DNA of 64,000 bases from the NCBI GenBank assembly GCA_014874485.1, contig JADBJK010000011.1:1-64000 (forward strand). The letters run 5' to 3'. Under the pieces are notes generated by a model. It was not told the origin of the DNA and did not search any database. It saw nothing but the letters and a program-made list of their open reading frames with translations. This document shows positions 33,114 to 53,726 of the stretch, in pieces. The first letter of the stretch is position 1, and each line of letters opens with the position of its first letter. The position numbers and the translations under genes are program-made. Source of the DNA: Chloroflexota bacterium (lineage in GTDB: Bacteria; Chloroflexota; Anaerolineae; DTLA01).

Positions 33114-33115
33114 GG

Positions 33116-35586: not shown

Positions 35587-37983
35587 TCACGCCTTTAGAA
35601 CTTCCATCGTGTACCGAATCTCCTCCGGCGTAACCGACGCGCGCAACTCCTCCATCTCGCGCATCGTCTTGGCCCACTTCTGCCCCTCTGCCGCGCTCAC
35701 CCACTCCAGTTGCAGCCGTTCGGGGCGAATCCCCAGTTTCTCCAGCCGGTCCCACAGGCGGTCCACCCGCCGCACCGTGTTGCGGTTCGCGTTGATGTAG
35801 TGGCAGTCGGCGTAGTGGCAGCCCGACACCAGCACCACCGGCGCGCCCTTGCGGAAGGCGTACAGCACGAAGTCCTCGTCCACGCGCCCGCTGCACATGG
35901 TGCGGATGACCCGCGCATTGGGCGGGTACGCCATGCGGCCCGTGCCCGCCGTGTCCGCCCCAGCGTAGGAGCACCAGTTGCACGCGAAGGCAACGATCTT
36001 GTCCTGCGGCCGGTTCTCCAGGATGGCGTCTATCATCGCGTAGATGGCCTGGTCCGAGAAGTGCCGCATCTGAATTGCGTTGAACTTGCACTCGGCCGCG
36101 CACGTCCCGCACCCCGCGCACGCCGCCGTTACCACCTTCGCGGGCGTCTTCGCCTTCACGTCCACCGTGATCGCACCATACGGGCACACCTTGGCGCACA
36201 GCCCGCAGAACTTGCACTTGTCGGGGTCCACCACCGCCGTGATGGCTTCCACGGCGATCTTGCTCTTGTTCAGCAGCACCTGTGCCCGCGCCGCCGCCGC
36301 GCTCGCCTGGGTTACACTGTCCTTGATGTCCTTGGGTGCCTCCACGCACCCCGCCAGGTACACGCCCTTGGTCGGCGTGTCCACGGGCTTCAGTTTCGGG
36401 TGCGACTCCATCAGGAAGCCGTCGCTCGTCCGCGAAAGGGTCAGCAACTGCCGCACCAGTTCCGTGTCGCCGCTGGGCACCGCGCCGATGGACAGCACGA
36501 TCATGTCGTGCTCGTGCTCCTCAATGCGATTGGCCGTCGTGTTCTCCACCACCACCCGCAGCGTCCCCGTGGCGGGGTCGCGGGTTACCTCGCCCGGCAG
36601 TCCGCGGATGTACCGCACCCCCGCCGCCTTGCTCCGCTTGTACAGGTCCTCAAACCCCTTGCCGAAGGCGCGGATGTCCATGTAGTACACCGTCAGGTCC
36701 ACGTCGGGGTAGTGATCCTTCAGCAGGAGCGTGTCTTTGATCGTGTTCATGCAGCAGATGTTGGAACAGTACGGGTTGCCCTTCTTCTCCGAGCGCGAGC
36801 CCACGCACTGGATGAACGCGATGCGGTGCGGGTGCTTGCCGTCGCTGGGCCGAATCAGATTCCCCTCTGTCGGGCCGCCCGCCGAGATGAGGCGCTCAAA
36901 CTCCATGCTGGTGATGACGTCCTCGTACCGCGTGTAGCCATACTCGTCCAATTCCGTCGGGTCATATGGCTCCATGCCAGTGGCCACGATGATCGCGCCC
37001 ACGTTGAGGTCCAGGATTTCGTCGCGCATGTCAAAGTCAATGCACTTCTTCTCGCACTTCTCCACGCACTTGCCGCAGGCAATGGGCACGTCGCCCAGGC
37101 ACTCTTGCATGTTGATGACATACGCCGACGGGACCGCCTGGGGGAACGGGATGTAGATGGCGCGGCGTGTGGACAGCCCCGCCTCAAACTCGTTGGGCAC
37201 CGCCACCGGGCACACCTTCGCGCAGTCGCCGCAGGCCGTGCACTCGTCCTCGCGCACGTACCGCGCCTTCTTCCGCACCTTCACCTTGAAGTTCCCCACG
37301 TACCCGGAAACGTCCTCTATCTCGCTGTAGGCCAGCAACTTGATCTTGGGATGTCGACCGACATCCATCATCTTCGGCCCGAGGATTCATATGGAACAGT
37401 CCATGGTGGGATAGGTCTTGTCCAACTGCGCCATAATCCCACCGATGGACGGCTTTTTCTCCACGAGATAGACCTGATGTCCGGCGTCGGCCAGGTCCAG
37501 GGCCGCCTGGATGCCCGCCACGCCGCCGCCGATGACCAGCGCCGCGTCGGTAACGGGGATGTGCTCCTCGTCCTGCGGGTAGAGCCAGCGCGCCCGCGCC
37601 ACGGCGGCCTTCACGATGTCCTTCGCCTTCTCCGTGGCCAACTGCGGCTCGCGGAAGTGCACCCACGAGCAGTGCTCGCGGATGTTCGCCATCTCCAGCA
37701 GGTAGGGGTTCAGGCCCACCGACTGGATGCAGGCGCGGAAGGTCGGCTCGTGCAGGCGCGGCGAGCACGAGGCCACCACCACGCGGTTCAGGCCGTGCTC
37801 CACCACCAGGCGCTTGATCTCCTGCTGGCCTGGGTCCGAGCAGGTGTACTTGTTCCGCGCCGCGACGACCACATCGCCCAGCGTGGCGGCGAACGCCCGC
37901 ACCTGCTCTGTGTCCACGCTCCCCGCGATGTTCGTGCCGCAGTCGCACACGAACACCCCTATACGCAGTTCCTCTCTCGGCAT
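35587..37983 (-). CDS. hdrA: HdrA-like selenoprotein with C-terminal MvhD domain (in-frame UGA read as Sec)
   Basis: Read through a UGA at 37387-37389, the frame gives a 798-residue heterodisulfide reductase A. Residues 7-21 hold the HdrA N-terminal cysteine motif ([14 protein letters not shown]); the FAD loop is [19 protein letters not shown]. Then comes the flavin-proximal motif, normally DCSICIL: here D-C196-S-I-Sec199-I-L-G-P-K. Downstream are several [4Fe-4S] clusters ([35 protein letters not shown]) and a fused MvhD domain ([21 protein letters not shown]). HdrA performs flavin-based electron bifurcation. Both halves are in the same frame, uninterrupted otherwise, and a SECIS-like hairpin follows the UGA. 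Sec in HdrA is known in some methanogens and bacteria. AAAGGAG precedes the ATG. Without Sec insertion a 198-residue fragment results. Confidence 0.88.
37349..37366 (-). promoter_or_regulatory. Bacterial SECIS-like hairpin in hdrA
   Basis: On the mRNA, GGAUGUC and GACAUCC form a perfect 7-bp stem closed by the loop GGUC. The stem begins 20 nt after the UGA and the loop 27 nt after it. Bacterial SECIS elements lie directly downstream of the UGA, and the E. coli fdhF element has the same GGUC apex. SelB binding is an inference. Confidence 0.75.
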
Positions 37984-38111: not shown

Positions 38112-39101
38112 TTATGTCAACCAACGCACCAGCCCGCCGATGAGCAGGCAGACCGACGCGAACAGTTCCAGCGCGAAGTGCACCTTGAACGTATTGAGCG
38201 TCAGTTCGTTGATGCCGTCGCCCTCGTACCCGCGTGCTGCCATCTTGCGGAAGTTGTCCACCGCCGTCGGCAGCGCAAACGCCAGCGGGATGAGCGCCGC
38301 GTACACCGGCACGCCCCACGCCCACGCCGTCGCCATCGCCGCCAGCGAGATGACCAGGTTCACGCGGTAGAGCACCGACGCCCGCTCCGGCCCCAGCACC
38401 ACCAGCCACGTGCGCTTGCCCGACTGGGCGTCGGTCCGCCGGTCGGCGTACTCGTTGGCCAGGATCACGTTCAGTATGGACAGCGCCAGCGCGATGCACA
38501 GGGGAACCAGCGCGGGAGAGAAGCGCCCCGCCTGCAGATAGTACCCCGAGATCACCGTCAGCGCGCCGGAACACGTGGCGATGACCAGTTCTCCCATGCT
38601 GTGGTACACCAGCATCAGCGGCTTGCCGGTGTAGAACCAACCGGCCAGCGCGCCGAACAGCCCCAGCGGGATAGTCCACGGGCCGGTGTGCAGCAGGAAC
38701 CGCAGTGACAGCCCCAGCGGCAGCGCCGCCACCAGCAGCCCCACCGCGAAGTACAGCGCCCGCTTGCGGTTCGTGATCTTGTTCTCCACCAGCACGCGGA
38801 TGCCGCCCGAATAGGCGCTGAACTCCCAGTTGTTCAAATCGGTCTCGTAGTCAAAATACGTGTTGCCCGCGTTCACGGCCCCAACGATGAGAAACACCGT
38901 TACCGACGACACGATGAAGACCGGCCAGTTGAACTGCCCCGTCTCAAAGTAGGCCAGCACCGCGCCCAGCGCGAACGGCAGCGACGCGGACAGAATGATG
39001 AACCGCGCCACCATGATCTCGTAGAACGCTCGGGCACTGTCCGGCTCAATCCCATCTAGCCGCTGCCTGTAGTATCGGTGAACTTCCTCAAAGGTCGGCA
39101 T
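38112..39101 (-). CDS. UbiA-family prenyltransferase
   Basis: A 329-residue integral membrane prenyltransferase. The first prenyl-diphosphate motif is NAGNTYFDYETD (N80, D84, D88) and the second is NEYADRRTDAQSGKRT. About eight hydrophobic helices follow the UbiA/MenA pattern. It attaches a polyprenyl chain to an aromatic or other acceptor, for example in menaquinone synthesis. No other quinone gene is in the window. The radical SAM gene lies 25 bp upstream in the same direction, so the pair may share a pathway. ATG at 39101 is favoured by GGAGAAGGGG. Confidence 0.87.
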   Translation of the reverse strand: MPTFEEVHRYYRQRLDGIEPDSARAFYEIMVARFIILSASLPFALGAVLAYFETGQFNWPVFIVSSVTVFLIVGAVNAGNTYFDYETDLNNWEFSAYSGGIRVLVENKITNRKRALYFAVGLLVAALPLGLSLRFLLHTGPWTIPLGLFGALAGWFYTGKPLMLVYHSMGELVIATCSGALTVISGYYLQAGRFSPALVPLCIALALSILNVILANEYADRRTDAQSGKRTWLVVLGPERASVLYRVNLVISLAAMATAWAWGVPVYAALIPLAFALPTAVDNFRKMAARGYEGDGINELTLNTFKVHFALELFASVCLLIGGLVRWLT

Positions 39102-39126
39102 GTCCCCTTCTCCGTGTTGCACAAGA

Positions 39127-40047
39127 TCAGGCTACGATGCGGAACAGGCGAAATGCCTCAAGGATGGCCGACGGCGAACCGTTGTACACGGCCTGCACCT
39201 CGGCCATGACGCCATACCCACAGTTCTCGCAGATGCGCGGGTCCACCAACCGCGCCCCGCACCCCTCCACGACCATGCCGTTGGGGTGGGCCAGGTGAAT
39301 CAGCCAGTGGGTCTTGTTCCACCCAGGCTTCAGCATCAAGCGGAACGCCGTCTCCGAGTTCAGGATGGGGTACCCCTGGCGCTTCAGCGCGATGATGCGC
39401 TCCACCGCCGCTGCCCGCTGCGCGTAATCCAGCGTGTGCTCCTCCACGCCTGGGTACGGAATCTGGAAGTTGACCGAGATGCCCTTGATGCGCGGCATCG
39501 CCTCCACGATGTTGCGCACGTTGGCTTCCAGGTCGTGCACGTTGATCTTGGACAGCGTGATGTTGGCGTACATGTTCGGGTTCTGGCTCTCGGCCACGTT
39601 CTTCGCCATGGTGGCGTAACTGCCCTTGCCGCGCACCTGGTCGTGCACGTCGGGAGAACCGTCCACGCTGATCCACACCAGGTCGCACGGGTTGTCAATC
39701 GGCAGAATCGCATTCGTTACGCAGGCCACCTTGTAGAACCGCTTCTTGGCATCCCGCACCAGATCGTTGAAGCGGTAGTCGCCATCGTGCCACAGGGTTG
39801 GCTCGCCGCCCTGCAGGAACAGGATGCGCACGCCGCGGTCCAGAAAGGACTGCATCATCTCTTCCAACTGCGCCCGCGTCAGGTGCTCGCGGGGAATCTC
39901 CGAGCCGACATACGGGCAATGCGCGCAGGCCAGGTTGCAGTACGACGTGATGTTGATGCCGCCCACCAGCGGGTCTCGCTTCCCCAGCACCCGCGTGCGG
40001 ACAAAGTAGCGGGCGTAGTGGCCCAGTTCGCTGAATTGTACGTTCAC
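39127..40047 (-). CDS. Radical SAM protein, substrate unknown
   Basis: A 306-residue radical SAM enzyme with the cluster motif C37-x3-C41-x2-C44 in SYCNLACAHCPY. QGGEPTLWHDGD and the ISVDGSPDVHDQVRG segment complete the half-barrel. Near the C-terminus, EGCGARL and ICENCGYG could bind a further cluster (shortened SPASM-like). The start is a GTG with CGGAGGA upstream; no ATG fits. It lies between HdrCB and UbiA genes and is probably cotranscribed with UbiA. The reaction cannot be named from the sequence. Confidence 0.85.
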   Translation of the reverse strand: MNVQFSELGHYARYFVRTRVLGKRDPLVGGINITSYCNLACAHCPYVGSEIPREHLTRAQLEEMMQSFLDRGVRILFLQGGEPTLWHDGDYRFNDLVRDAKKRFYKVACVTNAILPIDNPCDLVWISVDGSPDVHDQVRGKGSYATMAKNVAESQNPNMYANITLSKINVHDLEANVRNIVEAMPRIKGISVNFQIPYPGVEEHTLDYAQRAAAVERIIALKRQGYPILNSETAFRLMLKPGWNKTHWLIHLAHPNGMVVEGCGARLVDPRICENCGYGVMAEVQAVYNGSPSAILEAFRLFRIVA

Positions 40048-40114
40048 CCCAGGTCCTCCGTGAGTTAGGATGAGTGTAAGGATGAGACACTTATGCACAG
40101 GCTGTGCGAATTGA

Positions 40115-41254
40115 TCATATGTCTGCGAGCGCATCCGCCAGGACGCAGACCAAATCGCGGACGGCCACCCGCGGCCCCGACGCCGAAGTCGGTCCGCTCA
40201 TGGCGCAGGTGAAGTGAATCTGGCACTTGGGGCAGGCCGTTACCATCGCTTCGGCTCCCGCAACCAGGGCCTCGCCGATGCGCTCGTCCTGGAGCGCCTT
40301 CGCCACCTGCCCGCATTGCGTCCATACGCTGGTCCCGCAGCACAGCGCCCGCTCGCGCGCGTGCTCCATCTCCCGCAACTCGGCGGCGGCCTGGAGCACC
40401 GCGCGGGGCGCGTCGTACTCGCCGCCGTGCCGCCCCAGCCGACAGGGGTCGTGGAACGCCACAGGCAACGCGCCCTTGCGGAAGGCTATCTTCCCATCGG
40501 CCAGCGCCTGCGCCAGCACCTGCGAGATGTGGAGCACCTCCACCTTCAGGCCGCACGCTTCGGGGTAGTCCAACTTCAGCGTGCGGTAGCACTCGGCGCA
40601 GGACGTAACGATGCGGCGAATCCCCGCCTGGGCGAACAGCGCCGCGTTCAGGCTCGCCAGTTTGCGGAACCCCTCCGCATCGCCCGCCCACAGCAAATCG
40701 TGCCCGCAGCACCGCTCGTCGGCCAGCACCCGCGGCGCGATGCCCATATGGTTGAGCAACCGCACGGTGCTCTGGGCGATGGCCACTCCCTCAAACCCCT
40801 GCGCGCGGAACATCACGTCGTAGTGCGGCAGGCACCCCACGAAGTACAGGGTGTCCCCATCGGCGGACACCTGCAGGTCGTCCGTGAGCCAATCCAGGCG
40901 GTTCTGACGCAAACCCGGCTCCTGCATCAGGCGCATCCAGGCGAAAATCGCATCGCCATGAGTGCACGCCCCAGCGTTGCCCGACTCCCTCGCCAGCGCG
41001 CGCACGTCGCGGGCGAACTCCGAAAAGTGCACGTCGCCGGGGCACAGCGCGCTGCACCGCAAGCACGTGAGGCACTTCCACACCTCGTCGCCGCCGAGCC
41101 ACGTGCTTGGGTCATCGTTCACGGCGCGCTCCACCAGGCGGCGCGGCGAGAATCCCGCGTCCTTCCTGGCGACAGGGCAGACCGCCGTGCACTTCCCGCA
41201 ACTCAGGCACAGATAGGCGCGGTTCTCTCGGAGTGCTGTCTCCAGTGCGTTCAT
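40115..41254 (-). CDS. HdrC-HdrB fusion, iron-sulfur heterodisulfide-reductase-like subunit
   Basis: A 379-residue fusion. The HdrC part (1-110) carries two [4Fe-4S] sites, CLSCGKCTAVCP and CLTCLRCSALCPGD. The HdrB part has two cysteine-rich CCG domains: ERCCGHDLLWAG with SCAECYRTL, and ALCCGTSVWTQCG with ACPKCQIHF. These hold the noncubane clusters that reduce disulfides in methanogens. In non-methanogens the electron acceptor is usually unknown. It starts one base after mvhD with GGAGGACG, so HdrCB, MvhD and the HdrA-type fusion form one expression unit. Confidence 0.9.
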   Translation of the reverse strand: MNALETALRENRAYLCLSCGKCTAVCPVARKDAGFSPRRLVERAVNDDPSTWLGGDEVWKCLTCLRCSALCPGDVHFSEFARDVRALARESGNAGACTHGDAIFAWMRLMQEPGLRQNRLDWLTDDLQVSADGDTLYFVGCLPHYDVMFRAQGFEGVAIAQSTVRLLNHMGIAPRVLADERCCGHDLLWAGDAEGFRKLASLNAALFAQAGIRRIVTSCAECYRTLKLDYPEACGLKVEVLHISQVLAQALADGKIAFRKGALPVAFHDPCRLGRHGGEYDAPRAVLQAAAELREMEHARERALCCGTSVWTQCGQVAKALQDERIGEALVAGAEAMVTACPKCQIHFTCAMSGPTSASGPRVAVRDLVCVLADALADI

Positions 41255-41661: not shown

Positions 41662-44600
41662 TCACTTCCACCCCCGGCACAGGAGTTCCAGCGACAGCGC
41701 GATGTCCCGGTCGGAGTACGCGCCCTGCACCATCGCGCCCGATGGGCACCGCGCGACGCACAGGCCGCACCCCTGGCATCGGCCCGCGATGACCGAGGCC
41801 GCCTGTCGCCCGCCCGCATCGCGTATCTCCACTGCGCCGAACGGGCATACCTCCGCGCATGTCCCGCACGCCCGGCACAGCGCCTCGCGCACGCTGGCGC
41901 TGCTCCCATCGCGGCGGATAACGCTCCGTCCCAGGAGCGCGCTTGCCTTTGCCGCCGTCGCCTCAAGGGCTGCTTTCGGCGCGTCCGCGCTCACGTGGAG
42001 GATGCCCGGAACCCGGTGGTCTGGCTCCATGCCCACGAGCACCACCGCCCCGCACGTGGCCGCCATCTCGCCGCGCTCCCCGTGCAGGGTTACGCGGAAG
42101 TCGCCGATAGCGCCCTCTACCCGCGCAAGGCTGGCCCCCGGCAACACCTGCACCCCGGCCAGCGCATCCGCACCCCGAGCGCCCTCCCGCGTCGCCCACG
42201 ACGTGGCCAGGCCCACGCGCGACAGCAGCCTCGCCATCTCCCGCGCCGCCTTGCCCTCGCCCACCACCAGCGCCGCGGGCATCACCGGATACTCGGCGAA
42301 GGCCATGTCGGCCCCGCCCATCCTGGCGCGGGCAACGCCCAGCGCAATCAGGCTTTCCGCCACAGCGTTCGCCTCATCCGCATCCTCGTACAGCCACGCG
42401 CACTGCTCGCGGATGTTCACGAACTCCAGCCACGCGCCGGCCTCGTTCAGGGGCAACAGTTGGGCCTTGCACCGAAGCCGCTGCGTCGTGCACGAATAGC
42501 AGACCTGGTCCAGCGCGCAGCAGGAACACGCCGCCACCACCACGCGGTTCAGCCCGTGTTGCTCCACGACCTGGGCCAGGCGCGCACCGGCATCGGGCGC
42601 GCACGCCTGCTCCACCACTTCGGCCCACGCCACATCGTGCAGCGTCGCCACGCGCCGGGCAATCGCCTCCAGCGCCAAACGCTCGGCGACTTGCCCTTGG
42701 CAGGCACACAGCCAGACGCCGATGCGGGGGCTTGCTGCCACCGCGCGCCGCCTCCACGTGGCGATGGTCTGGCGAGGCCGCCCCGCCGCGAGCGCCAGCA
42801 GTTCCGCCGCGGCTGCCGACGCCCCCACGCGGTCCCCCGCCGACACGCGCCGCACCCCCCGCCCGGCCGCCATCACCAAATCGAGCCGCGCCTCCGCAAG
42901 GATCACGCCCGACACCGCCAGGTCGCGCTGCTCCTCCACCCAGTCGTGGCGAATCGCGCGCGGCTCGCACACGCGCACGCACGCCAGGCATTCGGAGCAG
43001 GGGCCGCACGTGAGGCAACGGCTCGCCTCGGCCACCGCCTGCTCCGGGTCAAACCCCAGTTCCACTTCCTTGAACGTGGACAGCCGCTCGTCCATCGGTA
43101 TCGTGGGCACAGGCAGGCGGGGGCGCGGTTGGCGTTGCGCATCCGACAACTCCCGACGCGCCACCGGCACGTCCGCATCGGCTTCCTCCACCGCCACGCC
43201 CCGCAGGTAAGCGTCTATCGCCGCTGCCGCGCGCTTGGCCGAGGCGATGGCGTGAATCACCGACACCGGCTGCGTGATGGCGTCGCCCGCCGCAAACACG
43301 CCGGGCCGGTTGGTCATGTAGGTCCGGCGGTCCACGTCAAACGTGCCCTGCGGCGTGATGCGCAACCCATGCCCTTCGCCCAGGAATCCCAGGTCGGGCG
43401 ACTGCCCGATGGCCGGCACCACCACGTCCACGTCCATGCGGAACTCGCTGCCCTCAATCGCGACGGGGCGACGACGGCCCGAGGCATCCGGCTCGCCCAG
43501 CCGCATGCGCACGCACTCCAGCCCTGCCACGCGGCCATCCCGCTCCAGCACGCGCAGCGGCGCGACCAGGAACTGGAACGGAATCCCCTCCCGCTCGGCT
43601 TCTTCCACCTCTTCGGGAATGGCGGGCATCTCCTCGCGCGAGCGGCGGTACAGCACCGTAACGTCCTTCACCCCCAGCCGCCGCAGCGACCGCGACACGT
43701 CCATCGCCGTGTTCCCGCCGCCGATGACGGCCACGCGGGTATCGGCCCCGCGCACCAGCACCCGCTCCAGCCCCTGCCTCCACTGCGGGTCGTCCACCTG
43801 CTGCGACAGGTTGAGCATCTTGAGCAGGCGTGCGCCGTGGACAACGCCCTCCAAATCCTCGCCTGGGATGCCGAGTTCGGTGCTGCGGTGCGCCCCCACG
43901 CCGATGAAGATGGCCTCGTACCCCTGCGCGAACAAGCCCTCCAGGCCGCCTTCCTGCAATCGCACCGGCGAGTTCAGGCGAATCTCCACGCCCAGGGCCT
44001 CTATGGCCGCTATCTCCATGCGCAGGATGTCCTTGGGCAGCCGGTAGGGCGGAATGCCGACGGCCAACATGCCACCTGCGACGGGCAGCGCCTCAAAGAT
44101 GGTAACCCGATACCCGCGCAGCGCCAGTTCCACCGCGACCGTCAGCCCTGCGGGACCGGAGCCGATGACCGCCACCCTGCGCCCGCCGCCGACATCGGGA
44201 GTCCGCTCCTTGCGGCCCAGGAGCGACGGGCGGCGCTCCGCCTGCAATTCATAATCCGCGACGAACCGCTTCAGCGCGCGGGTAGACACGGCTTTGTCCA
44301 CCTCGTTGCGGCGGCAGTTGGCCTCGCACGGGTGATCGCACACGCGCCCGCACACCGCGGGGAACGGAATCGCCTCGCGGATGAGTTCCAGCGCTTCCTC
44401 AAACCGCCGCTGGGCGATGAGCGCCACGTAGCCCTGCACGTGGATGCCGCCCGGACACGTGTCGGAGCATGGCGCGCGCCCGGCCCGCTCAATCGCGTAC
44501 ACGTCGGGGACGGCGTCCGCGGGCCGCCAGATGGCGCGGCGCGTCCCGTCCACGACCACCGGACACACCTTCTCGCATTCGCCGCAGCCGGTGCAGCGGT

Positions 44601-44871
44601 CCAAATCCACGAAGCGGCTGCGGACCCGGACGGCGGCCCGGAATCCAGCGCCCTGTCGCGCCAGAGCCACCAGCGACGCCGGCGCGAGAAACCGAATGTT
44701 TGGATGGCGCGAGACCTGCAACAGCCAAGCCCGCGCGTCCAGGTCGCCCGCGGGCACTGCGAACCACGGGCTTGCGCTCACCAGCGACACCTGCGCCCCG
44801 GCCTCGGCCAAATCCCAGGCCGCCTGCGCCCCCGCCAGCGTCCCACCAACGACCAGGAACCCTTCCGTCAT
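41662..44871 (-). CDS. Giant HdrA/GltD-type flavoprotein fusion
   Basis: A 1069-residue multi-domain protein. Residues 1-60 resemble the HdrA flavin domain, but the catalytic-cysteine motif is degenerate (DLDARAWLLQVSRHPNI). A [4Fe-4S] site (CTGCGECEKVCP, 93-104) follows. Residues 130-560 are a full GltD-type NAD(P)H oxidoreductase: cysteine cluster around 174-186, GSGPAGL, GGGNTAMDVSR, AIGQSPDLG and FAAGDA. A cysteine cluster CLTCGPCSECLACVRVC (619-635) leads to a second HdrA N-terminal motif (IGVWLCACQG, 717) and two C-terminal clusters (999-1009, 1032-1042). It likely links NAD(P)H with the Hdr and ferredoxin pools. It overlaps the korC-type gene by four bases and leads into mvhD and hdrCB. 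Confidence 0.88.
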   Translation of the reverse strand: MTEGFLVVGGTLAGAQAAWDLAEAGAQVSLVSASPWFAVPAGDLDARAWLLQVSRHPNIRFLAPASLVALARQGAGFRAAVRVRSRFVDLDRCTGCGECEKVCPVVVDGTRRAIWRPADAVPDVYAIERAGRAPCSDTCPGGIHVQGYVALIAQRRFEEALELIREAIPFPAVCGRVCDHPCEANCRRNEVDKAVSTRALKRFVADYELQAERRPSLLGRKERTPDVGGGRRVAVIGSGPAGLTVAVELALRGYRVTIFEALPVAGGMLAVGIPPYRLPKDILRMEIAAIEALGVEIRLNSPVRLQEGGLEGLFAQGYEAIFIGVGAHRSTELGIPGEDLEGVVHGARLLKMLNLSQQVDDPQWRQGLERVLVRGADTRVAVIGGGNTAMDVSRSLRRLGVKDVTVLYRRSREEMPAIPEEVEEAEREGIPFQFLVAPLRVLERDGRVAGLECVRMRLGEPDASGRRRPVAIEGSEFRMDVDVVVPAIGQSPDLGFLGEGHGLRITPQGTFDVDRRTYMTNRPGVFAAGDAITQPVSVIHAIASAKRAAAAIDAYLRGVAVEEADADVPVARRELSDAQRQPRPRLPVPTIPMDERLSTFKEVELGFDPEQAVAEASRCLTCGPCSECLACVRVCEPRAIRHDWVEEQRDLAVSGVILAEARLDLVMAAGRGVRRVSAGDRVGASAAAAELLALAAGRPRQTIATWRRRAVAASPRIGVWLCACQGQVAERLALEAIARRVATLHDVAWAEVVEQACAPDAGARLAQVVEQHGLNRVVVAACSCCALDQVCYSCTTQRLRCKAQLLPLNEAGAWLEFVNIREQCAWLYEDADEANAVAESLIALGVARARMGGADMAFAEYPVMPAALVVGEGKAAREMARLLSRVGLATSWATREGARGADALAGVQVLPGASLARVEGAIGDFRVTLHGERGEMAATCGAVVLVGMEPDHRVPGILHVSADAPKAALEATAAKASALLGRSVIRRDGSSASVREALCRACGTCAEVCPFGAVEIRDAGGRQAASVIAGRCQGCGLCVARCPSGAMVQGAYSDRDIALSLELLCRGWK

Positions 44872-45425
44872 GAGCGGCTCTCCACCAGTTTGCGGCCGTA
44901 GTCCAGCCCGGCCTGGAACGCCTTGAGGTTGAGTTCCTCCGTGCCCTTGGGCACCGATTCGCTCACCGCGCGGCGCATGGACTCCTCGGACACGACGCCC
45001 GCCACCGCCGTCAGGAAGCCCAGCATGACGATGTTGGCGACCATCTTCCGCCCCACCTCCGCCTCAGCGATGCGTGTGGCCGGGATGGCGTACACCTTCA
45101 CCCCCTCCGGCAGCGGGCCTAGCACCACCAAGTCCTCATCCACCAGCAGCAGATTCCCGTCGTGCAGCGTTGGCGCGTACTTGTTGTACGCCTCCTGCGA
45201 CATGATGACCACGACCGACGGGTCTATCAGGTGCGGATACTGCACGGGCGCGTCGGAGAGAACCACCTGCGCCGCGCACGCGCCCCCGCGCGACTCCGGC
45301 CCGTAACTCTGGGTAAACGTCGCGTACTTGCCGTCGTAGAGGGCCGCGGCCTTACCCAGGATGTACCCCGCCAGGATGATGCCCTGCCCTCCGAACCCCG
45401 TCAGCCGTATCTCCGTTCGCGCCAT
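44868..45425 (-). CDS. korC: 2-oxoacid:ferredoxin oxidoreductase, gamma subunit (second set)
   Basis: A 185-residue Kor-type gamma subunit with GFGGQGIILAGYILGKAAAL, FTQSYGPESRGGAC and PKGTEELNLKAFQAGL. The ATG at 45425 has GGAGGG upstream. Its stop overlaps the start of the HdrA/GltD-type fusion (ATGA), tying the oxidoreductase physically to the Hdr module. A TGTCATTGCGAG repeat separates it from korB. Confidence 0.93.
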   Translation of the reverse strand: MARTEIRLTGFGGQGIILAGYILGKAAALYDGKYATFTQSYGPESRGGACAAQVVLSDAPVQYPHLIDPSVVVIMSQEAYNKYAPTLHDGNLLLVDEDLVVLGPLPEGVKVYAIPATRIAEAEVGRKMVANIVMLGFLTAVAGVVSEESMRRAVSESVPKGTEELNLKAFQAGLDYGRKLVESRS

Positions 45426-45491
45426 CGCGCCCTCCATGTGTTGCGTTGGGTGTTGCCGATGGAGTCTAGTGCCACAACCTCAGTTATGACC

Positions 45492-45569: not shown

Positions 45570-46394
45570 CTACCCCACCTCGCCCCAGACGGGCTTCTCT
45601 ATGTCCACAAACTTGCCCACGATAATGTCGCCGCCCAGTTCAATATCCACATCGCGCGGGTCGGCCCCGTGGACGATGCGGCTGCGCTCGCGGTAGTAGC
45701 GCAGGTGCTCCAGCCCCTCGCGCAGTTTGTTCATGCGCCCGTACAGCGTGGGGCACGGCGAGATGATCTCCACAAAACTGAACCCGCGCTTCATGAGCGC
45801 CTCGCCGATGGCCTTCTCCAGACGGCGCACGTGCAGCACGGTCCAGCGGGCCACATACACCGCCCCGCTCCCTGCCGCCAGGTAGGGCAAGTTGAACGGA
45901 TGCTCCGCATTGCCGCGGGGCGACGTAGTCGTGCGCGCGTGCAGCGGGGTCGTCGGGGCCAGTTGGCCGCCGGTCATCCCGTAGTTGAAGTTGTTCACGC
46001 AGATGACCGTCATGTCCACATTGCGGCGGGCGGCGTGGATGAGGTGATTGCCACCGATGCCCGCCAAGTCCCCGTCCCCGCTGAACACCACCACCTTCAG
46101 TTCGGGGTTGCCCAGTTTCAGCCCGGTGGCGAAGGGGATGGCTCGCCCGTGCGTCGTGTGGAACGAATCCAGGCGCACGTAGCCCGCCACGCGCCCCGTG
46201 CAGCCAATGCCCGACACCACCACCACCTTGTCCATGTCCAGCCCGGACTTGATCAGCGCGCTGACAAAACAGGTGAGCGCCGTCCCCAGCCCGCACCCTG
46301 AACACCAGATGTGCGGCAAGCGGTCCTTCCGCAGCACAGCGTCCATCGGGTGCGATTCCGCCATCTCCACCTCTTGCGGCACCGTTTCAATCAT
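45570..46394 (-). CDS. korB: 2-oxoacid:ferredoxin oxidoreductase, beta subunit (second set)
   Basis: A 274-residue TPP-binding subunit. Features are WCSGCGLGTALTCF, GIGCTGRVAG, the TPP motif FSGDGDLAGIGGNH and VNNFNYGMTGGQLAPTTP. It aligns throughout with the first set's KorB but is clearly divergent, so the two enzymes probably have different substrates. GGAGGG lies before the ATG. Confidence 0.94.
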   Translation of the reverse strand: MIETVPQEVEMAESHPMDAVLRKDRLPHIWCSGCGLGTALTCFVSALIKSGLDMDKVVVVSGIGCTGRVAGYVRLDSFHTTHGRAIPFATGLKLGNPELKVVVFSGDGDLAGIGGNHLIHAARRNVDMTVICVNNFNYGMTGGQLAPTTPLHARTTTSPRGNAEHPFNLPYLAAGSGAVYVARWTVLHVRRLEKAIGEALMKRGFSFVEIISPCPTLYGRMNKLREGLEHLRYYRERSRIVHGADPRDVDIELGGDIIVGKFVDIEKPVWGEVG

Positions 46395-46408: not shown

Positions 46409-47563
46409 TCAGCGGCCCGCGGCCTTGCGAATCAACGCCAGGATGTCGTGCGGGTCGTGCAAGTCCCCGCCCGCGTGGCCCGCCAGGTACACGTCGGCCT
46501 TGCCCGCCGCGCACCGCTCCACCTCGTACACCATCTGCCCCAGGTTGATTTCCACCACGACGAAGGCGCGAACCCGCCCCGCAAGTGCGCGAATCTTCTC
46601 CTCCGGGAACGGCCACAGCGTGATGAGCCGCAGCATTCCCACCTTGATGCCTTCCTGCCGCGCCTGCTCCATCGGCCAGTACGACGTGCGCGCCGAGATG
46701 CCGTAGGTAACCACCACCACTTCGGCATCGTCCAGGTTCTGCTCCTCCACGTCTATCATCCGATGGCGATTCCGGCGTATCTTCTCCACCAGCCGCGTGA
46801 TCATCCGCTGCTGCGTAACTGCGTCCACCATCGGATAGCCGCGCTCGTCGTGGGTGAGGCCGGTAACGTGAATCCGATACCCCTCGCCGGCGTTCACCAT
46901 CGCGGGCACCAAGTCCTCGCCCGCCTCATACGGCTTGTACGCGTCGGGTCCAACCGTCGGCTTGCGGCGCGGGTAGATGGGAATCTGCTCCGGCGGCGGG
47001 ATGACCACCTTCTCCGTCATGTGGCCCACTTCCGCGTCGGTCATCACCAGCACCGGCGTGCGGAACTCCTCCGCCAGGTTGAAGGCGCGGATGGTGAGGT
47101 CAAACAACTCCTGCGGCGAACTGGGGCACAGCGCGATGATCTCGTAGCAGCCGTGAGAACCCCAGCGCGCCTGCATCACATCGCCCTGCCCCACCAGCGT
47201 TGGCAGGCCGGTGGACGGCCCGCCGCGCTGTACGTTCACCACGACGCACGGCGTCTCGGTCATGATGCCCAGGCCCAGGTTCTCCATCATCAGGCTGAAG
47301 CCAGGGCCAGAGGTGGCGGTCATGGCGCGACGCCCCGCCCAGGACGCCCCCAGCACCGCGTTCATGGACGCCAGTTCGTCCTCCATCTGGATGTAGATGC
47401 CGCCCACTTCGGGCAGGCGGGCCGCCATGCGTTCGGCGATCTCCGTCGCGGGCGTGATGGGGTACCCCGCGAAAAACCGGCACCCCGCGCAGATGGCCGC
47501 CTCGGCGCAGGCGTCATCGCCGCTCATGAAGTACTCGCCGAAGAGAAGCCGAGGCTCGCTCAT
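46409..47563 (-). CDS. korA: 2-oxoacid:ferredoxin oxidoreductase, alpha subunit (second set)
   Basis: A 384-residue subunit with CRFFAGYPITPATEIAE, QMEDELASMNAVLGAS, ATSGPGFSLMMENLG and VNVQRGGPSTGLPT. It is the pyrimidine- and CoA-binding partner of KorB. Its start overlaps the ferredoxin gene by four bases (ATGA), so translation is coupled. Confidence 0.94.
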   Translation of the reverse strand: MSEPRLLFGEYFMSGDDACAEAAICAGCRFFAGYPITPATEIAERMAARLPEVGGIYIQMEDELASMNAVLGASWAGRRAMTATSGPGFSLMMENLGLGIMTETPCVVVNVQRGGPSTGLPTLVGQGDVMQARWGSHGCYEIIALCPSSPQELFDLTIRAFNLAEEFRTPVLVMTDAEVGHMTEKVVIPPPEQIPIYPRRKPTVGPDAYKPYEAGEDLVPAMVNAGEGYRIHVTGLTHDERGYPMVDAVTQQRMITRLVEKIRRNRHRMIDVEEQNLDDAEVVVVTYGISARTSYWPMEQARQEGIKVGMLRLITLWPFPEEKIRALAGRVRAFVVVEINLGQMVYEVERCAAGKADVYLAGHAGGDLHDPHDILALIRKAAGR

Positions 47564-47829
47564 GGCGCCACCTCCATTTCTTCACGGACGTGGATGGCAA
47601 ATTCGGGGCACAGCATCTCGCAGAGGCCGCAGGCAACGCACTGCTCGGGGTGGAGCGCATAGGGGGGGTGATAGCCCTTCTGATTGAACGTCTCGGAAAT
47701 CGCCAGCACGTCGCGCGGGCAGAACTCCACGCAGAACCCGCACCCCTTGCACCGTTCCACGAGGACGGAAATCTTGCCGCGCGGCACCACAATCTTATCG
47801 GCATCCAGAGGACGACGCCAAAGCCTCAC
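47560..47829 (-). CDS. korD: Ferredoxin-like delta subunit (second kor set)
   Basis: An 89-residue 2[4Fe-4S] protein with CKGCGFCVEFCP and CVACGLCEMLCP. The start is a GTG with AGGAGGAG six bases upstream. It opens the second kor operon, with a consensus-like promoter at 47974-48001 and a hairpin in the leader. Confidence 0.9.
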   Translation of the reverse strand: MRLWRRPLDADKIVVPRGKISVLVERCKGCGFCVEFCPRDVLAISETFNQKGYHPPYALHPEQCVACGLCEMLCPEFAIHVREEMEVAP

Positions 47830-47862
47830 GCTGCTCCTCCTGTCGGTTTCTCGTGAAAACTG

Positions 47863-47900
47863 GGGCGCTCCATTGCAACCCCTGAGCGAATGGAGCGCCC
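47863..47900 (-). promoter_or_regulatory. Leader hairpin of the second kor operon
   Basis: A perfect 12-bp stem (GGGCGCTCCATT and its complement) with a 14-nt loop lies between the promoter and the ferredoxin start, inside the likely 5' leader. It ends about 34 nt before the start codon and is followed by a short AGTTTTC. It could be an attenuator, or instead the sucCD terminator. Confidence 0.55.
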
Positions 47901-47973
47901 TCGGTACCAGCAAGCGTTCCACACTCCGCCCAAGCGCCATCGCTTACGCGCGTGCGGCGTCCATGCAAAAGTC

Positions 47974-48006: not shown

Positions 48007-48873
48007 TCAGGCGGTTTCTGCCACCAGGTCGGCCACTTCCACCGGATGACGGGCGATGCGGACGCCTGCCTCCCGCAGGGCCGCGACCTTCTCCGCTGCC
48101 GTGCCCGTGCCGCCGGAGATGATGGCCCCCGCGTGGCCCATGCGCTTCCCCGGCGGGGCGGTCTGTCCCGCGATGAACGCGGTAACCGGCTTGGTCATGT
48201 GCGTGGCGATGTACTCGGCCGCCCGCTCCTCGTCCGTCCCGCCGATTTCGCCGATGAGCACCACATGCTCCGTCAGCGGGTCATCCTGGAACAACTTCAG
48301 GGCGTCAATGAACGTGGTGCCGATAATCGGGTCCCCGCCGATGCCGATGCAGGTGGACTGGCCGATGCCCCTCTGCGTCAGGGCGTACACGACCTCGTAG
48401 GTGAGCGTCCCGCTGCGCGACACCACCCCCACCTTGCCGGGCATGTGGATGTGCCCGGGCATGATGCCCACCTTCGCCTCGCCGGGCGTGATGAGGCCCG
48501 GACAGTTCGGCCCGATGAGCCGCGTGGACGTGTGCTTCAAGTACTCGCACACCTTCACCATGTCCAACACGGGAATGCCCTCGGTGATGCAGACGACGAG
48601 TTCAATCCCCGCGTCCGCGGCCTCCAGGATGGCATCCGGCGCGAAACGGGCGGGCACGTAGATGATGGACGTGTTCGCGCCCGTGGCGTTCACCGCCTCC
48701 TTCACCGTATCAAACACCGGCACGCCCGCGGCCCACTCGCCCCCCTTGCCCGGCGATGTTCCGCCGACCACCTTCGTGCCGTAGGCGATCATCTGCAGCG
48801 TGTGAAACTCCCCTTCGCGGCCTGTAATGCCCTGCACCAGCAGGCGCGTCTGCTTGTTCACCAAAACGCTCAT
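48007..48873 (-). CDS. sucD: Succinate-CoA ligase, alpha subunit
   Basis: A 288-residue CoA-binding subunit interconverting succinyl-CoA and succinate with substrate-level phosphorylation. The CoA domain shows [26 protein letters not shown] near the N-terminus and the phosphorylated histidine lies in [10 protein letters not shown]. The active pair with SucC is interrupted by a HIT gene, but both are on the same strand. Succinyl-CoA is the product expected of a 2-oxoglutarate:ferredoxin oxidoreductase, encoded immediately downstream. Confidence 0.97.
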
Positions 48874-48896
48874 CGCATTCCTCTCTTATGTCAACG

Positions 48897-49316
48897 TCAA
48901 GATTGTGGCTCAATGGCTTTGCGGATGCGCTCTGCAGCCCGCTGCAAGTCGGCGTCGCCGGCGAAGTACTCCCGGCGCAGGGCGATGGAGCGGTCGCCCG
49001 CCCAACGCGGCAGGACGTGGATGTGGAAGTGGAACACCGTCTGCCCCGCGGCGGGGCCGTTGCTCTGGAAGATGTTCACGCCATCGCACCCAAAGGCAGC
49101 CTTCACCGCGCGGGCCACCTTCACCGCCGTGCGCATCGCCGCCGCTGCCTCTTCCGGATCAATCTCAAACGCGTCGGCTGCGTGGGTCTTGGGCACCACC
49201 AGCGTGTGCCCCTCGTGAATCGGCATGATGTCCATGAACGCCACCGTCGCCTCGTCCTCGTACACGATGTGCGCCGGAGCCCGTCTGGCGATGATATCGC
49301 AGAACACGCACCCCAT
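48897..49316 (-). CDS. HIT-family nucleotide hydrolase
   Basis: A 139-residue histidine-triad protein of the Hint/PKCI group. It begins CVFCDIIARRAPAHIVYED and the catalytic triad is in HFHIHVLPRW. Such proteins hydrolyse nucleoside phosphoramidates or AMP-lysine bonds. GGAGGGG precedes the ATG. Its position between sucC and sucD (17-bp and 23-bp gaps) is unusual and places it under the same control. Confidence 0.95.
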   Translation of the reverse strand: MGCVFCDIIARRAPAHIVYEDEATVAFMDIMPIHEGHTLVVPKTHAADAFEIDPEEAAAAMRTAVKVARAVKAAFGCDGVNIFQSNGPAAGQTVFHFHIHVLPRWAGDRSIALRREYFAGDADLQRAAERIRKAIEPQS

Positions 49317-49333
49317 ACCGCCCCTCCGAGTCG

Positions 49334-50473
49334 CTACGCCTCGCCGCGAGCCGCCGCGACCGCCAACTGCGCCGCCTCCACCAGCGAGGTCGTGGCGCGC
49401 ATGTTGGCGTTCGCCAGCAGCCGCCGCCCTTCCTCCTCGTTGGTGCCCACCAGGCGCACCACCATCGGCACGTTCGGCTTGACCTCCTCCAGCGCCGTCA
49501 GGATGCCCTTGGCCACCTCGTCGCAGCGGGTGATGCCGCCGAAGATGTTGAACAGCACCGACTTCACGTTGGGATCCGAGAGAATCATGCGTAGGGCAGC
49601 CGCCACCTTGTCGGCCTTGGCCCCGCCGCCGATGTCCAGGAAGTTCGCGGGCGCGCCGCCGAACAGTTTGATGACGTCCATGGTGGCCATCGCCAGCCCG
49701 GCGCCGTTGACCATGCACCCCACGTTGCCGTCCAGTTTCACGTAACTCAGCCCGTGCTTGCGCGCCTCGGTCTCGGCGGGCGCTTCCTCGTCCAGGTCGC
49801 GCATCTCCTCCAGGTCGGGATGGCGGAACAGGCCGTTGTCGTCCAGGACGATCTTCCCGTCCACCGCCAGCAACTTGTGCTCATCGGTAACGACCAGCGG
49901 GTTGATCTCGGCCAGCGACGCATCCGTGCCCACAAACGCCTTGTACAGGCCCTGCGCGATGGCCGCGAACGACCCGACCAAGTCCTTGTCCAGGCCGATG
50001 CCAAAGGCGATCTCGCGGGCCTGGAACGGCTGAAGCCCCAGGAACGGGTTGATGCTCACCTTGTAAATCTTCTCGGGCGAAACGCGGGCGACTTCCTCTA
50101 TCTCCACGCCGCCCTCCGCAGACGCCATCATCACGGCACGCTTGGTCGCTCGGTCCACCACGACGCCCAGGTAGATCTCCTTCTGAATCCGCGCGGCCTC
50201 GTCCACCAGGACCTTCTTCACCTTCAGGCCCTTGATGTCCATGCCCAGAATCTGGCCGGCGATGCGCTCGGCTTCCGCGGGATCGCGGGCCAGTTTGATG
50301 CCGCCCGCCTTGCCCCGCCCGCCGACGAGCACCTGCGACTTGATGACGACCGGCTTGCCCAGCCGCGCCGCAATCGCCCCGGCCTCCACCGGCGTCGTCG
50401 CCACGTCCCCCTCCGGAATCGGGACACCGTAGCGCGCGAAGATGCGCTTGGACTGGAACTCATGCAGTTTCAC
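49334..50473 (-). CDS. sucC: Succinate-CoA ligase (ADP-forming), beta subunit
   Basis: A 379-residue ATP-grasp subunit. Features are [34 protein letters not shown], the [18 protein letters not shown] phosphate region and [14 protein letters not shown]. It starts with GTG preceded by GGGGAGG. First gene of sucC-HIT-sucD. Confidence 0.97.
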
Positions 50474-50540: not shown

Positions 50541-51453
50541 TTATGGCCCGAATGGCGCGAAGACCATGATGCGATGGTTCCCAGAGTCCGCCACGATCAG
50601 CCGCCCACTCTCATCCACCGCCAACCCAACGGGCAGACTGAACCGACTCTCATCCATCCCGTACTCCCCATAACTCGCCACAAACTCCCCCTCCACCGTC
50701 CACTCCAACACCCGATGCCCCTCTGGATCGCTTGCAAACACGTGCCCCCTGCCATCCACCGCCAGGTACGGCTTGTTCAACACCGACTCCCCTGCCCACG
50801 CCTTCACGTCCCACGCCTTCTCAAACTTCATCCCCGCACCAAACCGCTGAATCCGACGATTCCACGTGTCCGCCACGTACACCTTCCCGTCCTTGTCCAC
50901 CGCCAACCCTACGGGCTCCCAGAACTGCCCTGGCCCCGCGCCAAACCCACCGTACCCCGCGATGTACTGCCCCTCCGCCGTGAACTGCTGGATGCGCTCG
51001 TTCCCCGTGTCTATCACCAACACCGTCCCGTCCGCCGCAAGCGCCACCGCACGCGGCCCGTAGAACGCCCCAGGCAGCGCCATCGCATCCCCCGCCGAAT
51101 CCCCGCTCTCCCCCCACATCGTCAGGAACTTCCCGTCCTTGTCAAACTTCTGCACCCGATAGTTCCACGTGTCCGCCACGTACACGTTCCCATCCTTGTC
51201 CACCGCGATCCCCCACGGCTCGTTGAACTCCCCAGGCCCGCTCCCGTACTGCCCCCAACCTCGCAGATACCGCCCGTTCGCGTCAAACACCTGCACCCGA
51301 TGGTTCCCCGTGTCCGCCACGTAGATGTTCCCCGCCCCGTCCACCGCCACCCCGCGCGGGTCCTGGAACTCCCCACGCCCCTGCCCCTGCCGTCCAAACG
51401 TCAGCACCGCAGGCACCAGCACCTTCTTCACCGCGTACGGGTCCTCGGTTACG
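50541..51453. repeat. Near-identical 913-bp duplication (NHL propeller), copy 1
   Basis: This segment and 53727-54639 differ at only a scattering of positions, including G/A at 50573, although the upstream parts of the two genes are well diverged. Both encode the NHL propeller and end at the stop codon. Confidence 0.92.
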
Positions 51454-53666
51454 ACGGGCGGCTGCTGGGGCACCGCGCCGCCGATGCTGTACTTCCACAT
51501 CAGCGAGGCGATGTCCTTGCGCACGTACATGGCGAAGTCGTGCCGATTCGGCCACGTGTCGGCGGTGTACTTGTACTTGCGCCACCACAGGATATCCCAG
51601 ATTTCCGCGCGCTTGACAGGGTCTTGCAGCATGGCCCGCAAGCGGGACGGGGTCAGCCCTTTGTAGTCCTCCACGGGCCACCACACCAATTGCCGCCACG
51701 ACTGCGTCGGGAAACGGTAGTAGTTGTCGCCCAGGAAAGGCCGCACCTTGTCCTCGTTGCACGAATCCACCAGCACCACAGGCACGGTAAATATCTGCGG
51801 GCTTGCCGATGTCCCGCCGTCCCAGTATTGGAAGTAGTGCCGATTGGGGTACTCGCGCAGGTACCATTCCAGTGGCCACGCCAGGCCGCCCACGTCGTCC
51901 TTCGGATTCGCCCTGTCCCGCAGGTCGCCGCCGTCGTAAGACAACTCAATGGACGTGTCCCCGTACAGCCGCTCGGATATCTCGGCGATTTCGCTCATCG
52001 TCTGTTTCACGAATTGCGTGCCGTGGGCGTACACGATGAACTCTTTCGCGGTGTCGTAGTTCACGTAGTTGGCCATCCACGTGAACCGCACCGTGAGCAG
52101 GAACAGGAGCGCGAATGCCGACACCGCCGTGCACCGCATGGCGAACCGCACGCCCAATCGCATCGTCGCGTAATAGTACAGCGCCCAGAGGACGGCCATG
52201 ACCACGGCCGCGTTGAGAATCCATGTCGCCGTCCGCGACAGGTCTTGGAGCGACATCCCCGCGAACGGCCTCAGCAGGAACAGCCGCACGATGACGAACA
52301 CGGCGAACGGCACAAGGAGAACGAAGCCCGCAGCCCCTCGCTTCCACGCCTCGCGCCAGTCCACGCCGCCGATCCAATCCTGCGCCAGCCGCCCCGTGAG
52401 CAGGGCCATCGGCAGGACGGGGTGCAGCACCAGCCACGGCATCTTCTCCCCCGCCCAACTGTACAACGCCGTGGCCGCAATCGTCCAGAAGACGAGGAAC
52501 GGGACAAAGGGAAGCGCGTCCTTCTCCTCGTCGGCAGACCCGCGCACGAACGCGTAGTACACAAGCCCCACCACCGCCCCCAAGAGCGGCAGGAACTCGT
52601 ACATCGGCATTAGCACGAAGTAGTAGTACCAGGGCTGGTCTCCTCGCTGCACGCTGTGCTGCTGGAGCCAGTAGACCACCTGCCCGATGGTGCCGCTGTA
52701 CAGGCCCCTGAGGTTGCTGAACACGGTGGTGTACAGCACCACGAAGATCACCGCCGCCGCGACAGCCGTCCACGCGACCGCACGCCACCGCACGGCCGCC
52801 AGGCCCGACGACACGGGCGCGCGCTCGCCCATGTGTCGCCACGCGAAGCCCGCCAGCCCGAACGCGAAGACGAAACACGCGACCAGGACGAGGTCGGGCA
52901 GGGGACGCGGGGTGGGGGTCAGCACGCTGCCGCCCGAACGCACCGTGAGCCAGAGCGCCGCGACGAGGAACCCGCCGCCCGCCGCCAGCAAGGCCGACCG
53001 CACGACCACGCGCGCCGACGCTCCCAGTCGCTCCCAGGCCACAGCCCACAGCACGAAGACCACGAAGATGAAGCCCGTGATGTACGCCACTTCTTTGGTG
53101 GCAATGGACAGCAGCGCCACGATGCCGAACAGGTAGATGTAGCGATCCTTGCGCTCGTCCAGGAAGCGGAACAGCGCGATGAGCATCAGCACCGACCAGA
53201 CGGCGATGTAGATGTCATTGCGGATGTAGCGCGAATAGTACAGGAACGACGGCGAGAACGTGAGTATGACAGCCGTTGCGAACGCGCCCAGCCGCCCCAG
53301 CCACTTGCGCAGGAAGTAGGGCAGAACCGCCAGCGACGCGCCGAACAGCGCGGGCACAAGCCGCGCCGTGAAGTCGCTCACGCCGAAGAGGTAGTAGGCC
53401 AGCGCGTTGGCGTAGAACAGGAACGGCCCGTGCATCATCGGGTCGTGCACGTACCCCTGCCCCGCGTACAACTTCCACGAGAACAGGGCGTGCAGGCTCT
53501 CGTCGTGGCTCATGCTGCGCGCGCCCAGGTTCCACAGGCGCATCGCCAACGCCACGGCGAACAGCGCGAAGTACGCCGCCTTCTCCCAGGTCAGCCACGC
53601 CAGCGCCCGCGCCGCAGGCTGCTGCCACCACCTTTGCAGTTCCGAATCGCGCTCCGTCTCGCTCAT
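50541..53666 (-). CDS. Agl23/GT39-like membrane protein with C-terminal NHL propeller (copy 1)
   Basis: A 1041-residue protein of the TIGR03663 (Agl23-associated) type. Residues 25-560 hold about twelve membrane helices; the GT-C-type acidic motif SMSHDESLH lies in the first external loop, and WYYYFVLMPMYEF later. A soluble region (about 560-740) follows, then six NHL repeats (RGVAVD, GIAVDKDG, ALAADGTV, GLAVDKDG, LAVDGRG, GLAVDESG) forming a probable six-bladed beta-propeller outside the membrane. It probably transfers sugars from a lipid carrier to surface glycans or proteins. ATG 53666 is chosen; GTG codons lie just upstream. Its 3' 900 bp nearly duplicate copy 2. Confidence 0.85.
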   Translation of the reverse strand: MSETERDSELQRWWQQPAARALAWLTWEKAAYFALFAVALAMRLWNLGARSMSHDESLHALFSWKLYAGQGYVHDPMMHGPFLFYANALAYYLFGVSDFTARLVPALFGASLAVLPYFLRKWLGRLGAFATAVILTFSPSFLYYSRYIRNDIYIAVWSVLMLIALFRFLDERKDRYIYLFGIVALLSIATKEVAYITGFIFVVFVLWAVAWERLGASARVVVRSALLAAGGGFLVAALWLTVRSGGSVLTPTPRPLPDLVLVACFVFAFGLAGFAWRHMGERAPVSSGLAAVRWRAVAWTAVAAAVIFVVLYTTVFSNLRGLYSGTIGQVVYWLQQHSVQRGDQPWYYYFVLMPMYEFLPLLGAVVGLVYYAFVRGSADEEKDALPFVPFLVFWTIAATALYSWAGEKMPWLVLHPVLPMALLTGRLAQDWIGGVDWREAWKRGAAGFVLLVPFAVFVIVRLFLLRPFAGMSLQDLSRTATWILNAAVVMAVLWALYYYATMRLGVRFAMRCTAVSAFALLFLLTVRFTWMANYVNYDTAKEFIVYAHGTQFVKQTMSEIAEISERLYGDTSIELSYDGGDLRDRANPKDDVGGLAWPLEWYLREYPNRHYFQYWDGGTSASPQIFTVPVVLVDSCNEDKVRPFLGDNYYRFPTQSWRQLVWWPVEDYKGLTPSRLRAMLQDPVKRAEIWDILWWRKYKYTADTWPNRHDFAMYVRKDIASLMWKYSIGGAVPQQPPVVTEDPYAVKKVLVPAVLTFGRQGQGRGEFQDPRGVAVDGAGNIYVADTGNHRVQVFDANGRYLRGWGQYGSGPGEFNEPWGIAVDKDGNVYVADTWNYRVQKFDKDGKFLTMWGESGDSAGDAMALPGAFYGPRAVALAADGTVLVIDTGNERIQQFTAEGQYIAGYGGFGAGPGQFWEPVGLAVDKDGKVYVADTWNRRIQRFGAGMKFEKAWDVKAWAGESVLNKPYLAVDGRGHVFASDPEGHRVLEWTVEGEFVASYGEYGMDESRFSLPVGLAVDESGRLIVADSGNHRIMVFAPFGP

Positions 53667-53726
53667 CCGCGTATGCACCACACCCGCCGAACTCGGCCAG
53701 CGTTTATGTCAAGTCGCATCCGACTT

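Follow-up and report, generated by a model that had tools for sequence, protein, structure and literature searches.

A 64,000-nucleotide stretch of a Chloroflexota bacterium (assembly GCA_014874485.1, contig JADBJK010000011.1; hereafter the window) encodes, on its minus strand at 41662-44871, a 1069-residue protein in which parts of HdrA enclose a GltD-type NAD(P)H module; we use hdrL* as a working name for this gene. We find that hdrL* is a separate, conserved sub-form of the HdrL kind, and both its anatomy and its genetic partnership with a 2-oxoacid:ferredoxin oxidoreductase (OFOR), MvhD, HdrCB and a complete HdrA are solid. The reading we lean towards is that the protein acts as an NAD(P)H-linked iron-sulfur wiring hub, joining a 2-oxoglutarate:ferredoxin oxidoreductase, a separate bifurcating HdrA, and HdrCB. 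The putative complex and its bifurcation constitute a well-founded hypothesis.

The open reading frame (ORF), with an ATG start and a TGA stop, is not a chance one, because it has full-length relatives at 40-92% identity and is under purifying selection (dN 0.098 / dS 0.524 = 0.19 against its orthologue in genome G040). An initial annotation had described the product as two HdrA-like parts joined around GltD, and sequence searches against Pfam, NCBIfam and the PDB recovered this order. The chain opens with an HdrA-like flavin part and a [4Fe-4S] site, together reaching to about residue 130; a full GltD-type module follows at 132-640, then the N-domain of HdrA at 716-900 and finally its C-terminal ferredoxin at 954-1062. 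Profiles built in this analysis gave it again as FADa(partial)-FdI-G4-GltD-HN-FdC, neither FADb part remaining (Table 1). Two domain identities were refined: the N-terminal part represents a degenerate flavin domain of HdrA, of which only the first half is there, and not an HdrA N-domain; the cysteines that come after GltD (619-635) can be aligned to the second half of the inserted HdrA ferredoxin, so that GltD sits inside this ferredoxin as it does in type III HdrA. The N-terminal piece aligns to HdrA 145-291, its GGTLAG replacing GGGxAG; the DCSxC motif is absent, the MAQLDKTxPTxDCSxC stretch is mostly gone, and neither flavin-domain shell of the protein has standard FAD motifs. Since its HdrA-derived ends match HdrA of solved structure, an ordinary GltD protein with simple ferredoxin tails, or with extensions of the GltD/DsrL type, is ruled out.

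Sorting with these profiles, applied to 80 stretches retained from 299 related ones in a scan of GTDB genomes, separates three layouts. HdrL-type proteins read FADa-FdI-G4-GltD-FADb-HN-FADa-(FdI)-FADb-FdC (about 1400-1600 residues) and type III proteins HN-FADa-FdI-G4-GltD-FADb-FdC (about 1140 residues); the FADb profile, found twice in the former and once in the latter, is missing from all 20 short, hdrL*-like forms, and hdrL* has lost two segments of about 240 residues each relative to HdrL. The short forms, which the initial annotation had proposed seeking in other Chloroflexota, are present in 17 of the 396 genomes of the class, across 8 families, and in 3 further families elsewhere in the phylum at 31-37% identity. 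Thirty-two cysteines are invariant across 17 aligned short-form sequences. Their HdrA N-domain carries the motif CxCCxx[D/E]QxCxxC without exception (20/20), whereas none of 139 other HdrA N-domains (31 HdrL, 43 type III and 65 plain HdrA) has it, these carrying a CxPRxHExxF-like sequence in its place. In the N-domain tree the short forms are monophyletic, with support of 100/98 and in all 200 bootstrap trees, but the GltD tree, which has many open forks, does not make them one group and forces at least three changes, suggesting that the GltD part has been exchanged.

Structure models were consistent with the loss of half a flavin domain. The whole chain was modelled by AlphaFold2 (AF2) with a mean predicted local distance difference test score (pLDDT) of 70 and a predicted template modelling score of 0.44, and the C-terminal 358 residues, modelled separately, with a pLDDT of 79. 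The latter model matched whole HdrA (8rvy) over 334 residues (Z 20.2; root mean square deviation, rmsd, of 11.0, with domain shifts), and its residues 148-276 matched HdrA flavin domain 142-588 (7bke) over 126 residues (Z 15.0, rmsd 2.1), so that only one Rossmann shell is left of this domain, its other half being gone. The best structural matches of the GltD part were StnC (8oh5, Z 32.3), NfnABC (9bov, Z 32.0) and NfnI (5jca, Z 30.8), in match lists dominated by the GltD domain and the flavin shell that barely probe the cluster domains.

The gene neighbourhood of the short forms is strikingly conserved, supporting the earlier proposal of a hub that links NAD(P)H, OFOR and Hdr. Its core is korDABC-hdrL*-mvhD-hdrCB-hdrA, and its full order (sucCD)-korDABC-hdrL*-mvhD-hdrCB-hdrA(Sec)-mvhD, Sec being selenocysteine; the order is maintained in the three other families even at a hub identity of 31-37%. 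korA lies near 15 of 19 short-form loci but near none of 40 type III and 24 HdrL loci; in the remaining four short-form loci (L011, L129, L130 and L133) the sequence runs out, at a contig edge or close to it, before korA would be reached. In the window korC and hdrL* overlap by 4 nucleotides; the codon overlap that had been proposed for the other flank as well is instead a gap of 1 nucleotide both between hdrL* and mvhD and between mvhD and hdrCB. KorA and KorC exceed the NCBIfam 2-oxoacid cut-offs and KorB and KorD fall below theirs, and as sequence alone cannot give substrate specificity, it is the presence of sucCD within the block (sucC or sucD is upstream in 9/19 loci) that points to 2-oxoglutarate and succinyl-CoA as the substrate pair. 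In 17/17 sequences HdrCB has kept the eight cysteines of its HdrC part and the two CCG sites (in the window, C141/182/183/219/222 and C271/305/306/341/344).

MvhD is fused to the hub in f44; an apparent fusion of MvhD to HdrCB at loci L121 and L124 was rejected, the frames merely overlapping. The same block is also found with a simpler hub, GltD-ferredoxin-MvhD, of about 790-920 residues and lacking the HdrA N-terminal parts, in Fidelibacterota, Acidobacteriota and further bacteria. Here the order is kor genes-[GltD-ferredoxin-MvhD]-hdrCB-hdrA, with hdrA split at the Sec position, at five loci (loci considered: L054, L055, L061, L064, L078 and L080, the last ending before kor). The common core is therefore GltD, ferredoxin and MvhD, and the HdrA shells are optional.

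Residues around the cofactors indicate where bifurcation may take place. Glu356 and Lys409 (5odc numbering), named as essential for HdrA bifurcation (PMC12054007), belong to a region missing from both HdrA-like parts of hdrL*; in an alignment the neighbouring full HdrA keeps equivalents of both. The GltD module, for which PRK12771 is the best NCBIfam model (492 bits, below the cut-off of 516), has FAD and NAD(P) Rossmann motifs, including GGGNTAMD...YRRSREEMPA, in addition to its N-terminal cluster domain, and the GGGNTAMD...YRRSR part fits NADP(H) as the nucleotide of the window protein. Lys201 of hdrL*, invariant in 17/17, corresponds to Lys170 of StnC, the FAD of which is non-bifurcating (PMC10482914), whereas NfnB has Glu at this proximal-cluster position; we therefore place bifurcation at the separate HdrA, and the hub would be an NAD(P)H port and wire. 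By analogy with StnC, the one likely FAD of the hub, in GltD, is probably non-bifurcating.

The electrons that a 2-oxoglutarate:ferredoxin oxidoreductase requires must have a potential near -500 mV, and the way in which anaerobes meet this cost is often left open; a conserved block in which a putative oxidoreductase of this kind is encoded together with a presumed bifurcating HdrA and a module for NAD(P)H would be a concrete answer on electron supply. We propose that hdrL* is an iron-sulfur wiring subunit descended from HdrL-type HdrA-GltD fusions, in which the GltD FAD would exchange hydride with NAD(P)H and hand electrons one at a time to a series of [4Fe-4S] clusters, while both HdrA-like ends, cluster-binding parts plus empty Rossmann shells, would serve as electron wire and docking surface. 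Such a hub would have three partners: the low-potential 2-oxoglutarate oxidoreductase KorD/KorAB; MvhD with the complete HdrA, the presumed site of flavin-based bifurcation or confurcation; and the disulfide-type HdrCB, of higher potential. In the most likely overall scheme HdrA would divide the NAD(P)H electrons into two sets, one of which would reduce a disulfide-like acceptor at HdrCB while the second would drive the reductive carboxylation of succinyl-CoA to 2-oxoglutarate; the same parts would allow the reverse, in which oxidation of 2-oxoglutarate and a dithiol yields NAD(P)H. The reductive direction fits the host genome, in which we found neither a 2-oxoglutarate dehydrogenase E1 nor a citrate synthase (assembly 96% complete) and in which carbon monoxide dehydrogenase/acetyl-CoA synthase is present. 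More tentatively, as a bolder version that we would not yet bet on, NAD(P)H oxidation bifurcated at HdrA may directly drive the 2-oxoglutarate:ferredoxin oxidoreductase by way of a dedicated protein wire, with no part for free ferredoxin, reductive 2-oxoglutarate synthesis being paid for by reduction of a disulfide or similar compound, in an undescribed complex that occurs in several phyla with two hub designs.

Several observations weigh against a wiring hub of this kind. Co-location of genes is not proof of a physical complex, and cofactor occupancy, complex formation, bifurcation, direction and the identity of the disulfide are all things that we infer. The AF2 model is weak near the clusters, with pLDDT under 50 at 88-105, 129-155 and 615-645. 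GxGxxG is intact in the shells of two relatives (L157 and L126), and in some of the relatives a shell could still hold FAD. The Arg pair of the second GltD Rossmann motif is lost in four relatives (L129 and L132-134), so the nucleotide may differ among species. Gene absences from a 96%-complete assembly are weak evidence, and a COX1-family gene in the host genome makes a purely fermentative setting uncertain; on both grounds we hold the direction loosely.

An unlikely alternative dispenses with bifurcation: the hub would be a simple NAD(P)H:ferredoxin-type reductase akin to DsrL that serves 2-oxoglutarate oxidation, HdrCB and HdrA acting as electron sink. The single flavin apparently left in the hub, and its reduction to GltD-ferredoxin-MvhD in the same block of Fidelibacterota and Acidobacteriota, would suit this reading, but a full HdrA with its bifurcation residues, MvhD and an intact HdrCB accompany the hub at nearly every locus not ended by a contig edge. 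It is likewise improbable that the block serves quinone rather than a disulfide, with HdrCB passing electrons to menaquinone or fumarate as its GlpC, LdhH and TfrB relatives do: these are its best NCBIfam relatives, and a UbiA prenyltransferase lies within the block in this genus, yet the blocks of the other families have neither UbiA nor the radical SAM gene beside it, and both CCG sites of HdrCB are intact. We give rather little credence to an NfnB-like bifurcation at the GltD FAD itself, in which KorD would receive the low-potential electron by way of the GltD clusters and HdrA/HdrCB the higher-potential one by way of MvhD. NfnI/Xfn (Z 30-31) is nearly as close structurally as StnC and NfnABC (Z 32), and the Arg by which NfnB holds FAD N5 is retained as R277 in 17/17; however, non-bifurcating StnC has the same Arg, hdrL* and StnC both have Lys in place of the proximal-cluster Glu of NfnB, and the block encodes a complete HdrA with both key residues. 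A decaying or mis-assembled HdrL gene, its flavin halves eroded without function, as the two lost segments and the shells devoid of FAD motifs might suggest, is refuted by full-length relatives with the same losses (20 sequences from 11 families), by the invariant cysteines and dN/dS of 0.19, by a monophyletic N-domain with an invariant motif of its own and by a separate full HdrL paralogue in the same genome.

The hdrA that we propose as the bifurcating partner has an in-frame TGA, probably encoding selenocysteine. In most loci this TGA aligns with residue 197 of 5odc; a Cys codon (TGT/TGC) replaces it in L157, L159 and L122, the HdrA of L122 being of a different, unfused type. The host genome has a tRNA-Sec (67.9 bits, cut-off 47) and SelB (349 bits, cut-off 242), and HdrA selenoproteins are known (PMC2702500). 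A SECIS-like hairpin sought at the hdrA TGA folded no better than shuffles.

The full HdrL paralogue of the host, of 1536 residues (G000:C115; L135:10914-15521), adjoins a 1048-residue double HdrA, followed by an MvhD (15491-15973) that a single in-frame stop interrupts and that may be a further selenoprotein. One in-frame TGA is also seen in the matched region of HdrL-like proteins at L103 (G048:C378), G074:C573 and G006:C134, fitting Sec-containing HdrL as in D. autotrophicum.

Table 1. Genes of the block and domains of hdrL* in the window
Feature	Position	Strand	Remarks
sucC, succinate-CoA ligase beta	49334..50473	-	above cut-off
sucD, succinate-CoA ligase alpha	48007..48873	-	above cut-off
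korD, delta ferredoxin	47560..47940	-	8 Cys invariant in 17/17
korA, alpha subunit	46409..47563	-	PRK08659 above cut-off
korB, thiamine pyrophosphate subunit	45570..46394	-	ORF opens at 46616; homologues begin near residue 75
korC, OFOR gamma	44868..45437	-
hdrL*, flavin-stripped HdrA-GltD-HdrA fusion	41662..44871	-
hdrL* residues 5-46, degenerate first half of HdrA flavin domain	44734..44859	-	FADa profile positions 2-43 of 86
hdrL* residues 77-129, first half of HdrA inserted ferredoxin	44485..44643	-	C93/C96/C99/C103; profiles
hdrL* residues 131-558, GltD cluster domain (131-209) and FAD/NAD(P) module (231-558)	43198..44481	-
hdrL* residues 618-635, second half of HdrA ferredoxin	42967..43020	-	C619/622/625/628/631/635 all invariant
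hdrL* residues 714-851, HdrA N-domain with new motif	42319..42732	-	CSCCALDQVCYSC
hdrL* residues 862-980, second HdrA flavin domain, bare Rossmann shell	41932..42288	-	second half missing
hdrL* residues 991-1060, HdrA C-terminal ferredoxin	41692..41901	-	two clusters, two CxxCxxCxxxC sets
mvhD-like, 134 residues	41256..41660	-	Cys 15, 44, 69, 74 invariant in 19/19 relatives
hdrCB, 379 residues	40115..41254	-	HdrC dicluster and two CCG sites
radical SAM gene and UbiA prenyltransferase, between hdrCB and hdrA	38112-40134	-	this genus only
hdrA-mvhD fusion	35587..37983	-	in-frame TGA (Sec) in TMDCSI[U]ILGPKM

About 1 kb downstream of hdrA lies a second OFOR set, korD'A'B'C' (31656-34517, minus strand), which is not at this place in the other loci covering the region and is possibly genus-specific. 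The gap of 460 nucleotides between sucC and sucD (48874-49333) contains a plus-strand ORF of 133 residues that is chance-like by codon GC. Beyond sucC, a run of large membrane proteins (50541-63991, minus strand) matches TIGR03663 (Agl23-associated) and TIGR03662, the first two of them having tails that match ScyF/NHL-type models.

The initial annotation knew of no described arrangement of this kind. HdrA-GltD fusions as such have been described: HdrL is a heterodisulfide reductase/glutamate synthase fusion beside mvhD in Desulfobacterium autotrophicum HRM2 (Strittmatter et al. 2009, PMC2702500), and HdrA with an inserted GltD was termed type III in a 2025 survey (PMC12054007). We found no close characterised homologue of hdrL*, however, and a form stripped of its flavin halves in this way, marked by the CxCC motif and tied exclusively to KorDABC-HdrCB-HdrA(Sec), appears to be undescribed; nor did we find a description of an OFOR-HdrL-MvhD-HdrCB block, a weak absence, as subscription papers were mostly outside the literature covered. 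The form suggests that HdrA flavin modules can persist as apparently empty scaffolds for iron-sulfur wiring.

HdrL shares with hdrL* the order FADa-ferredoxin-GltD-...-HdrA N-domain-...-C-terminal ferredoxin and an adjacent MvhD, but has both FADb halves and the CxPRxHE motif in its N-domain, and korA is near none of its 24 loci. Type III HdrA similarly has GltD between the two halves of its ferredoxin and a proposed NAD(P)H input, but begins with the HdrA N-domain, has a complete flavin domain and is likewise without korA in 40 loci; hdrL*, with its N-domain at 714-851 and no FADb, does not qualify as type III. The dicluster protein NF045663 (186 bits against hdrL*, cut-off 530), PRK12771 and similar GltD proteins have the GltD core in common with it but lack HdrA parts. 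As in StnC (8oh5; PMC10482914) and NfnABC (9bov, 9n5u), the GltD module of hdrL*, at 39-44% identity, would feed a separate bifurcating module, and the Lys at its proximal cluster is that of StnC; StnC, however, is fused to NuoG and pairs with the HydBC-like StnAB, whereas hdrL* is fused to HdrA parts and has HdrA and HdrCB as its putative partners. With the HdrABC-MvhD complexes (5odc, 7bkb, 8rvu) the block shares MvhD, an HdrA with bifurcation residues and the cluster sites of HdrC and HdrB; those complexes take electrons through a hydrogenase or formate dehydrogenase module, whereas here that place would be taken by a GltD NAD(P)H hub together with a 2-oxoglutarate oxidoreductase.

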